Made by a program: the position numbers and the translations under genes
In this document: positions 1 to 2,936 of the stretch, one piece after another
Layout of the letters: each line of letters starts with the position of its first letter
Position numbering within the stretch: the first letter of the stretch is position 1
Assembly (NCBI GenBank): GCA_947628655.1
Contig: CANRAS010000001.1
Coordinates: 124,001-188,000 of the forward strand
Length of the DNA: 64,000 nt
Origin: an uncultured Clostridia bacterium
GTDB taxonomy: Bacteria; Bacillota; Clostridia; Oscillospirales; Ruminococcaceae
Direction: 5' to 3'
Notes under the pieces: generated by a model
The model's input: the letters and a program-made list of their open reading frames with translations, nothing else
Told to the model about the DNA's origin: nothing
The model's database searches: none

Positions 1-706
1 CGGGACGCTTGAACTTTAACTGCGCCGCCGCGACAATCGGGAGCCATTCGCGGATATAACCAACGTCCGCGCCTGTTTTCTGACAGTATATTTTCAGATA
101 CTTTTCAGCCCATTCCGTGTGGTGTTTCAGGCAAAAGCTGAGATACGTCTTAGCCGCGTCCGCGGCGGCGTTGCCGAGTTTCGCTTTCATCCAGTCCACA
201 ACGAACGTCCCGCGCCTGCCGATTATGATGTTGCCGGGCGAAAGGTCGCCGTGGCAGAGTTTTTGGTGCTGAGGCATCTTGTTAAGGTGCGTTAAAAGTT
301 CGTATTTCTTCACATCGTCAATCATATCCAGACGTTCTATTGAGCGCGTAAGATAATCTTTAAGACGGCTTACCTTTGCGGAGGAAAGTCCGTTTATCTC
401 GATTTGAATATCCGCGAGCAAGCCCAGATATTCGTCGCTTTTATTCGGTTCTTCGCGCATAAGCTGTTCGAGAGTTTTCCCCTCGCATAACTCGTAAACG
501 ACAGCGAGTTTATCGTCAACTCTTACTATTTCCAGAAACTGCGGAATTTTCTTGTAGCCCGTTTCCTCGACGCGCGCGTGAGTAATAGCCTCGTAAAGCA
601 CGACGCTTTTCGGCTCGTTCGGGTCTTTGAATAACTTTACGCACTTCCCGTCACATTCAAAAACCTGAACCTTTTCTCCGTCCGAGATTATTTTTTTAAG
701 TTCCAT
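1..706 (-). CDS. Aminoglycoside/choline kinase-like phosphotransferase, partial (C-terminus outside window)
   Basis: Reading leftward from the ATG at 706 (preceded by a GGAAAGGG ribosome site) the frame stays open to the window edge, giving about 235 residues. Residues 152-159 read HGDLSPGN, the catalytic loop of the aminoglycoside phosphotransferase (APH)/choline kinase fold, and VVDW at 169-172 supplies the metal-binding Asp171. A Lys near residue 24 and a Glu near 39 fit the ATP-anchoring pair. The family phosphorylates small hydroxylated molecules; the substrate cannot be read from sequence, and a self-resistance or sugar/choline kinase role is equally possible. It is transcribed divergently from the binding-protein gene at 889. 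The 3' end is missing, so family length cannot be compared. Confidence 0.75.
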   Translation of the reverse strand, partial: MELKKIISDGEKVQVFECDGKCVKLFKDPNEPKSVVLYEAITHARVEETGYKKIPQFLEIVRVDDKLAVVYELCEGKTLEQLMREEPNKSDEYLGLLADIQIEINGLSSAKVSRLKDYLTRSIERLDMIDDVKKYELLTHLNKMPQHQKLCHGDLSPGNIIIGRRGTFVVDWMKAKLGNAAADAAKTYLSFCLKHHTEWAEKYLKIYCQKTGADVGYIREWLPIVAAAQLKFKRP

Positions 707-815: not shown

Positions 816-844
816 TTGACAATTATATGAAAGTGTGGTAAAAT
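816..844 (+). promoter_or_regulatory. Sigma-A promoter of the substrate-binding protein gene
   Basis: TTGACA (816-821), 17 bp, TAAAAT (839-844), preceded by TGG, an extended -10. It is about 45 bp upstream of the ATG at 889, which has an AAAGGGG ribosome site. Confidence 0.75.
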
Positions 845-888: not shown

Positions 889-1689
889 ATGAAGAAATTT
901 TCTGCGATATTGTCATCGGCGGTATTAAGCGCGGTTATGCTTTCGGGCTGCGCGAGGACAAATAAAACGATAAATTCCGCTGAAGATTTGGCGGGCGCGA
1001 CAATAGCCGTGCAGATGGAAACAACGGGCGACGCCTACGCGTCCGCTCTCGAAGAACCTGAGGACGGCAAAGAACCCGCGAGGATAGAGCGTTTTGACGC
1101 GGGGGCGGACGCGGTGAACGCGCTCAAACAAGGCAAGGTTGACTGCGTAATCATAGACGACGGACCCGCGCAGGTTTACGTTCAGAATAACAGCGACCTT
1201 AAAATCCTCCCCGACGCGTTTGCCGACGAGGAATACGCGATTGCCGTAAAGAAAGGCAACACGGAACTTACCGAAAAACTGAACGCCGCGCTCGAAGAAC
1301 TCGAAAGCGACGGCACGCTCCAAAAAATCGTGGATAATTACACGGGCGATGAAACAAAGGGCAGTTTTGTTTACACCTCACCTGCGGACATAAAACGTGA
1401 AAACGGCACGCTTGTTATGGCGACGAACGCGCAGTTCCCGCCGTATGAAATGGTTGAAAACGGAAACATCGTCGGCATTGACGCCGATATGATGAGAGCC
1501 GTCTGCGACAAGCTGGGAATGGAACTTGAAATAGAAGATATGAAGTTCGATGAAATAATCACAGCCGTAAAACAAGGCAAAGTCGATGTCGGCGTTGCCG
1601 CAATGACCGTAGACGAAAGCCGTCTGAAGGAAGTGGATTTCACGAGGACATACGCAAAGGGCAAGCAAGTGATAATTGTAAAGAAATAA
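889..1689 (+). CDS. Circularly permuted amino-acid-type substrate-binding lipoprotein (SBP_bac_3-like)
   Basis: The 266-residue product starts with a lipoprotein signal (lipobox LSGC, Cys21). Family 3 solute-binding proteins normally run lobe 1 (motif like TNAQFPPYE, ending near VIIVKK) and then lobe 2 (EDLAG..IAVQ..TTGD to the C-terminal helix). Here the order is swapped: lobe-2 sequence and the usual C-terminal helix occupy about 30-152, a linker about 153-170, and the normal N-terminal lobe (TLVMATNA to VIIVKK) about 174-266, ending at the stop. Expected ligand-contact features remain: Arg245 of the DESR segment and Asp90 in the VIID segment. It is probably a membrane-anchored polar amino acid receptor, but no permease or ATPase gene is adjacent. 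It has its own promoter. Family assignment is firm; transport function is inferred. Confidence 0.85.
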   Translation: MKKFSAILSSAVLSAVMLSGCARTNKTINSAEDLAGATIAVQMETTGDAYASALEEPEDGKEPARIERFDAGADAVNALKQGKVDCVIIDDGPAQVYVQNNSDLKILPDAFADEEYAIAVKKGNTELTEKLNAALEELESDGTLQKIVDNYTGDETKGSFVYTSPADIKRENGTLVMATNAQFPPYEMVENGNIVGIDADMMRAVCDKLGMELEIEDMKFDEIITAVKQGKVDVGVAAMTVDESRLKEVDFTRTYAKGKQVIIVKK

Positions 1690-1721
1690 GCACAAGCCGG
1701 CGTTTTTATAAAGCGTCGGCG

Positions 1722-2549: not shown

Positions 2550-2618
2550 TATAAAAAGTCGGTATACACAGCCGATTTTATAAACGAACAAAAGCAAGAA
2601 GTGGAAAAGGAGAAAACT

Positions 2619-2936
2619 ATGACATTTGAAGAATTACTCGCAAAAGTCCGCGAAAAGGTAGCGCAGACGGACGTTTCATCACAGCCGTTTTTAGCCGTTC
2701 AGGTGAATATCACGGGCAAGGACGGCGGGGTGTTCTACATCGAGGTAAAGGACGGCAAAGCGTCGGTTGAACCGTACGAGTACAACGACCGTTCCTGCGC
2801 CGTTACTATGGAGCAGGCGAAGTTTATAAAGCTTATGGACGGCAAACTCGACCCCGTTCTGGCGTACACCACGGGCAAACTTAAAGTAGAAGGCGATTTG
2901 GGTAAGGCGCTGGAGTTCTCTAAGTTAATCAAGTAG
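2619..2936 (+). CDS. SCP2 sterol-binding domain protein
   Basis: A 105-residue single-domain protein starting at the ATG at 2619, with AAAGGAG 7 nt upstream; a GTG six codons earlier overlaps the ribosome site and is unlikely. The pattern FYIEVKDGKASV, then a run of charged residues, then LMDGKLDPVLAYTTGKLKVEGDL is typical of SCP-2-like lipid-carrier domains, which form a hydrophobic tunnel. In bacteria these small cytosolic proteins probably bind acyl or isoprenoid lipids; the ligand is unknown. It has a strong promoter of its own. Heptamer-like and GC-palindrome repeats begin within 30 bp of its stop codon. Confidence 0.85.
   Translation: MTFEELLAKVREKVAQTDVSSQPFLAVQVNITGKDGGVFYIEVKDGKASVEPYEYNDRSCAVTMEQAKFIKLMDGKLDPVLAYTTGKLKVEGDLGKALEFSKLIK

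Follow-up and report, generated by a model that had tools for sequence, protein, structure and literature searches.

A predicted natural circular permutant of a family-3 solute-binding lipoprotein from Clostridia, apparently orphaned from its transporter

Natural circular permutation is on record among the binding proteins of ATP-binding cassette (ABC) transporters. TpMglB-2 (Tp0684) of Treponema pallidum is a naturally circularly permuted ABC ligand-binding lipoprotein proposed as 'Type Ic', and its report gives a crystal structure, glucose binding, and relatives in treponemes and Gram-positive bacteria (PMC4990184). In a second report, the glycine-betaine-binding proteins form a circular-permutation family of CPSARST whose partners are less than 24% identical (PMC2395249). 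Here we analyse a gene at positions 889–1689 of a 64,000-nucleotide stretch of DNA (the window) from an uncultured Clostridia bacterium of the family Ruminococcaceae, contig CANRAS010000001.1, which a first-pass annotation had read as encoding a circularly permuted family-3 substrate-binding lipoprotein. With considerable confidence, we take it to encode a natural circular permutant of an amino-acid-type family-3 lipoprotein, forming one two-lobed binding protein, that would here be an orphan after in-place loss of permease and ATPase genes and most likely still binds.

Three segments are distinguished in the canonical proteins of this family: a, the N-terminal part of lobe 1; b, lobe 2; and c, the hinge-2 strand with the C-terminal helices of lobe 1. 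The open reading frame (ORF) was confirmed as annotated, and its segments follow the order b-c-a instead of the canonical a-b-c:

889..1689, plus strand: whole gene for the permuted substrate-binding protein, order b-c-a (266 residues, ATG start; ORF, profile and model)
889..951, plus strand: predicted lipoprotein signal peptide with lipobox LSGC (residues 18–21, Cys21), judged by eye from the translation
967..1200, plus strand: segment b, lobe 2, residues 27–104, canonically mid-chain and here first (AncQR alignment, segment profiles)
1201..1344, plus strand: segment c, hinge-2 strand and lobe 1 C-terminal helices, residues 105–152, canonically the C-terminus (AncQR alignment, segment profiles, model)
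1345..1404, plus strand: linker between the former C- and N-termini, residues 153–172, 20 residues (alignment)
1405..1686, plus strand: segment a, N-terminal part of lobe 1, residues 173–266, canonically first and here last (Pfam, AncQR alignment, model)

The Pfam model SBP_bac_3 (PF00497) recognises the window protein above its cut-off (E 4.8e-38), split in two stretches, the best of which places residues 175–266 on model positions 1–92. Relatives of SBP_bac_3 are listed among the NCBIfam models, none of them reaching its own cut-off for this protein. The ancestral binding protein AncQR (PDB 4zv1), an SBP_bac_3 member, matches with a whole-sequence E of 3.3e-46: window residues 172–266 align with AncQR 9–104 and residues 25–153 with AncQR 106–232, the exchanged blocks jointly covering nearly all of its 233 residues, once. 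Such an exchanged-order alignment is, on these scores, far beyond chance. Because the first block comprises b and c and the last comprises a, the chain is cut at hinge 1 with its natural termini joined. We conclude that, as far as sequence can tell, the window gene is a naturally circularly permuted family-3 solute-binding protein opened at hinge 1. Its identity to canonical relatives is 55–59% over 206–210 columns.

Separate alignment of the halves, which the first-pass annotation had proposed as a check, thus bears out the permutation together with the two-stretch Pfam match. That annotation had the following lobe coming first; the exchange of order stands, but the first block is lobe 2 (27–104) followed by two elements of lobe 1, its hinge-2 strand and its C-terminal helices (105–152). 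Its other details agree with ours: the normally N-terminal piece, the first part of lobe 1, comes last (block 173–265), the linker is short, at 20 residues against 15–24 (median 19) in the single-unit b-c-a genes examined, and a lipoprotein signal stands in front, judged by eye from the peptide MKKFSAILSSAVLSAVMLSGC. The lipobox motif behind the LSGC assignment is the one we assume for bacterial lipoproteins.

Like TpMglB-2, the window protein is a natural permutant of an ABC binding lipoprotein. The two are otherwise unlike. TpMglB-2 has a type I glucose-binding fold, another cut, a fourth crossover and a poor sequence match in the permuted part, whereas the window protein matches family-3 (type II) proteins and so falls outside the type I sugar-binding proteins of Type Ic; it belongs to an amino-acid family in which segments of permuted members match those of canonical proteins at up to 73% and segment order has changed repeatedly.

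Homologues of the same order were sought among related genomes (L denotes loci and G genomes; L001 is the window locus). Within the genus, 19 of 43 genomes, the own genome included, match nearly the full protein co-linearly, at 54–100% identity, or 54–74% in the others; partial matches occur in G006 (59%) and G038 (57%), and more distant ones at 26–33% in G019, G022 and G027. The family holds at least 95 co-linear matches (at least 207 bits) in at least 92 of 396 genomes, again counting the own one, a lower bound given that the initial pass scored only some candidates; two of the 95 contain an in-frame stop. Five named permuted records (L032–L036) are 54–63% identical to the window protein. 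One of them, L032 ('Ruminococcaceae bacterium UBA7135'), shares 2651 31-mers with locus L006 of G002, a genome of the genus, and the other four are labelled Lachnospiraceae or Blautia. Matches in b-c-a order also appear in several other families of the order and class samples. At E 1e-47, a threshold that would miss weaker relatives, the phylum sample gave matches in 4 of 398 genomes, three inside the class and one outside. The window permutant belongs to a large group with transporter operons and is not a unique rearrangement, a point on which the first-pass annotation had asked for a search. The sole match outside the class, L204 in G1240 (182 bits, query 1–265), possibly reflects transfer or an older origin.

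Operon context was taken from 203 loci picked by query match or as canonical examples, so that the counts are not frequencies; they omit 15 other ORFs with incomplete or tandem segment strings and one interrupted gene. Among 97 different single-unit b-c-a ORFs, a HisM-type permease ORF lies just 3' in 81 and is fused in 12, so that 93 are encoded with or fused to a permease; two lie at a contig edge (L020, L023), and two have no permease, the window locus and L013 of G018. In 76 of the 81 loci with a separate permease, an ATPase ORF follows within 1.5 kb. A second permuted class, c-a-b, is cut at hinge 2 and comprises 22 genes by segment profiles (L136–L150, L196–L201, L203), all but L200 with a permease gene downstream. 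Permease genes accompany 35 of 37 a-b-c genes, E. coli GlnH included, one of the remaining two being at an edge and one without. Permuted proteins in operons or permease fusions should act as importer subunits. The earlier statement that the gene stands alone without transporter genes is right for the window locus and wrong for its family.

Three further loci deserve mention here. In L033 (4005–4805) and L034 (5917–6714) the permuted protein, adjoined by permease and ATPase genes, has a signal peptide without a lipobox cysteine (by eye) and is not fused to a membrane protein. A b-c-a-permease fusion in L083 (G221:C3) is interrupted by one in-frame TAG, where decay or error is possible. The gene of L021 is cut by the contig start and has an unrelated tail.

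The first-pass annotation had itself named the outcome that would undo it, an assembly artefact of a tandem duplicated locus, to which a truncated remnant of such a locus may be added. Tandem a-b-c-a-b-c arrays do exist in relatives, and trimming one would yield b-c-a. The recurrence of b-c-a in so many genus and family genomes, at the identities given above, and its permease partners, adjoining or fused, speak against any artefact, as do the conserved columns, which are largely kept, and the comparison with the sister gene, in which the proportion of changed sites is 0.159 for amino-acid changes (pN) and 0.77, saturated, for silent ones (pS). For the family an artefact is thereby excluded, and overall we regard this explanation as extremely improbable.

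The fold was modelled from a 30-row alignment in which the window protein and its five permuted relatives were joined by 24 half-proteins, drawn from 12 of 13 canonical loci. The model, which answers the first-pass call for a structure prediction, is confident and two-lobed, with a mean predicted local distance difference test score (pLDDT) of 92.2 and a predicted template modelling score (pTM) of 0.83; pLDDT is 91–96 at residues 151–170, covering most of the linker. Long strands at 112–121 and 256–265, the latter ending the chain, can be read as the two hinge strands. As the chain end coincides with the second of them, the lobes should be crossed once, not twice, the single crossover running via strand 112–121, with the lipid anchor expected on lobe 2.

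Foldseek, a sequential method, finds binding proteins and related folds for the model, the first being GlnPQ (PDB 6h30). The alignments with OpuAC and OpuBC extend to about 270 columns; OpuAC (2b4l, 2b4m) is among the best matches, at 267–270 columns but a TM-score of just 0.43–0.47. With a canonical glutamine-binding protein (4g4p) the alignment spans 256 columns at 0.42, so that the OpuAC and OpuBC matches say little on strand order, and one shared with OpuAC is not implied. The betaine-binding proteins resemble the window protein as binding proteins of the same fold related by permutation; they differ in not belonging to SBP_bac_3.

The ligand site was compared by aligning the window protein with the E. 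coli GlnH sequence and its presumed glutamine contacts. Six of these presumed contacts are kept (F183, F220, T240, R245, T45 and D90), giving the Arg, Asp, Thr and Phe expected for contact with an α-amino acid, and the ligand-contact regions are to that extent retained, as first claimed. Proteins of all three orders, b-c-a, a-b-c and c-a-b, conserve these six columns. AncQR, GlnH and other family-3 proteins accordingly share with the window protein the sequence family of both blocks and, presumably, these six contacts, and differ from it in their a-b-c order. An α-amino acid is the likely ligand.

How the window gene came to stand alone is shown by synteny. The relevant features at the locus are:

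816..844, plus strand: promoter-like site ahead of the gene, TTGACA-17-TAAAAT (agrees with the consensus at 11 of 12 positions; a match to consensus only)
1696..1720, plus strand: terminator-like hairpin immediately 3' of the gene, 11 pairs and tail GTTATCTTTC; such sites are about equally frequent in shuffled sequence (5 found, 3.8 expected)
1690..1721, no strand: 32-base gap to the next gene, where L057, L058 and L067 have permease and ATPase genes (synteny)

In L057, L058 and L067 the gene order is kinase-like, binding protein, permease, ATPase, YwaF-like, the names of the two outer genes being those we presume. The window retains both outer neighbours: its kinase-like gene is 75–80% identical to those of the three loci and its YwaF-like gene, at 1722–2597, 61–65% identical. 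The permease and ATPase genes are both missing from the gap. A cognate permease query left the own genome without a match at any E up to 10, and the same query finds a match of at least 63% identity in 17 of 43 genus genomes. The best-scoring ATPase of the own genome, which is given as 95.6% complete, is just 39% identical, and the cognate permease and ATPase of a HisM/GlnQ-type ABC importer were thus not found there. We conclude from this synteny that the permease and ATPase genes have been lost in place and that the lone state of the window gene is secondary.

A second orphan, L013 in G018 (a genome given as 80% complete), keeps the kinase-like gene and the binding protein and has no permease within 6 kb downstream. 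The kinase-like gene, as we presume it to be (window 1–706, minus strand), lies near the binding protein in 7 of 17 genus loci examined, this second orphan locus included.

Both orphans are, by counts of unique changes, altering faster than their near relatives. For the window protein against its sister L003 the ratios are 28:10, 25:12, 25:8, 23:9 and 24:9 with five of six outgroups, and for G018 against its relative L007 they are 26:10, 30:12 and 24:8. These ratios and the in-place loss could mean that the orphan is decaying towards a functionless pseudogene, and two substitutions close to the ligand contacts, G44E and G238A, point the same way. The frame is intact, however, with the promoter-like site and hairpin present; change from the sister is mostly silent per site, pS lying far above pN; the six presumed ligand contacts remain; and all 44 columns with a conservation of at least 85% are unaltered in G018. 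Decay is a possibility to be taken seriously, if not the one we favour.

A little less probable, and on balance doubtful, is that selection maintains the orphan because it feeds a different permease encoded in the genome or works at the surface as a sensor or scavenger. The gene is intact, the genome has a distant canonical family-3 binding protein (C7), and BPD_transp_1 permeases are matched five times. The cognate permease query, though, matches none of these five at E up to 10, and the one neighbourhood of the five that was examined (L076) has its own binding protein. That system we take to be of sulfonate or nitrate type. The simplest view of the window copy is that of an orphan on which selection is weaker, with a residual role as a surface binder or as partner of another permease possible.

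The sequence of events that we favour for the permuted lipoprotein is as follows. Both lobes would still assemble into one binding protein, its chain starting on lobe 2 and ending at hinge 1, and most relatives examined would supply, as a separate or a fused protein, the binding subunit to an ABC importer with one permease. In the own genome the permease and ATPase were deleted in place. The orphan left behind is most likely still able to bind an α-amino acid on the surface of the cell, with no dedicated partner. For the permuted orders, the probable origin is a binding domain that was duplicated in tandem and then trimmed at lobe boundaries, a route whose expected intermediates are tandem arrays in both frames. 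Arrays of a-b-c units on a permease are seen twice over in L131, L134 and L135 and three times over in L153; b-c-a units are doubled in L019, L053 and L155 and tripled in L053.

The largest arrays are very long ORFs. A 1550-residue ORF in G390 (L156:631–5280) has five a segments, corresponding to about five diverged b-c-a units, fused to one permease, and a 1025-residue ORF in G022 (L053:7808–10882) fuses about three diverged b-c-a units to one permease; an ATPase gene follows each. Tandem binding domains on a permease are shared with GlnPQ (6h30), whose domains we presume to be in canonical order; unlike there, permuted units are also permease-fused among the relatives studied here.

Several observations weigh against the reading of the window gene as an orphaned permutant that still folds and binds. 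Structure prediction from the single sequence is poor (pLDDT 39.6), only six full-length permuted rows stand behind the alignment-based model, the rest being canonical half-proteins, and its Foldseek matches have TM-scores of 0.3–0.5, normalised by the query. Five presumed GlnH contacts, D10, K115, G68, G119 and H156, are replaced, by N180, Q42, A238, T46 and I89. The window protein deviates in three of the 44 conserved columns (G40A, G44E, G238A); at least three deviations are found in 21 of 98 b-c-a rows, the median being one, so the window protein is not extreme in this comparison (which omits L023, L053 and L154–L156). With the distant outgroup L033 the ratio of unique changes is 17:16 and the rate difference is gone. 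Finally, a gene halfway between tandem and permuted was not found for the window's own lineage.

The number of order changes was assessed in trees for which the segments were laid in canonical order. At least 14 changes are required in a tree of 120 of 177 units (80% identity filter, quick method), at least 12 in a 69-row tree with long branches dropped and b-c-a thinned, and at least nine in a 38-row tree; a 67-row permease tree gives 14. Approximately unbiased (AU) tests reject a single clade of all b-c-a rows (p 4.7e-5 and 4.0e-5) and of all c-a-b rows (p 5.3e-4 and 1.7e-8). Each permuted order, on these trees, has therefore arisen or changed more than once, gain being inseparable from reversal.

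Matches covering query residues 102–265 had been considered mere partial matches, an assignment rejected when three-segment profiles identified all 15 loci examined (L136–L150) as c-a-b. A count of 12–14 independent permutations was likewise set aside as an upper figure only, in view of alike linkers and of groups for which AU tests do not reject a single origin.

A single origin of b-c-a followed by spread, with the scattered tree positions being errors, draws on these same groups. The AU tests do not reject a single clade for the near b-c-a group, taken with L110 but leaving out canonical L168 (p 0.07), or one origin of c-a-b group i (p 0.10); once L203 is added, the latter is rejected (p 0.0096). 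Linkers are alike across the main b-c-a group, as they are among L136–L138 and L196–L201, and binding-protein and permease trees conflict on L136, L138, L187 and L203. We nevertheless consider a single origin improbable: the all-b-c-a and all-c-a-b clades are rejected as above, L122, L151 and L152 are cut about 10 residues further on, inside b, with 19–24 residues remaining after segment a, and the permease tree independently groups L122 with canonical L172 and L175 (100/99).

In the permease tree, L110 (b-c-a) and L168 (a-b-c) likewise group together at 100/99. It seems to us somewhat more probable than its opposite that segment order in Clostridia binding proteins is evolvable, all three rotations, cut at lobe boundaries, occurring in apparently intact permease-ATPase operons, having arisen repeatedly by way of permease-fused tandem arrays and with a possible return to the canonical order in L168, beside L110.

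Permutation of binding proteins is known, and its recurrence at both hinges within family-3 operons appears to be new. In the open-licence literature, covered by titles and abstract starts among the matches listed, with subscription papers outside that scope, we found no report of permuted SBP_bac_3 proteins in Clostridia. Ancestral solute-binding proteins were reportedly permuted by engineering, for Förster resonance energy transfer (FRET) sensors, by Clifton et al. in 2017, to go by the title; those are laboratory products, whereas the window protein is natural.

Most inferences of circular permutation link distant proteins. In the present family, chain order differs between genes that are about 70% identical and adjoin related permeases, so that folding, hinge motion and interplay with the permease become directly comparable. 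Cuts are seen at either hinge, and with each a single lobe crossing should remain, which tests the need of a two-strand hinge for closure. Repeated re-cutting in a large bacterial family is also a natural test of protein rewiring with function kept, and the window copy offers a clear-cut example of a binding protein that has outlasted its transporter. Profile annotation overlooks the permutation, with Pfam giving the family in two stretches.

One neighbour further downstream may be noted: a small ORF at window 2601–2936, preceded by a promoter-like site with all 12 of 12 consensus matches at 2521–2549, which we take to be sterol-carrier-like (SCP2-type).
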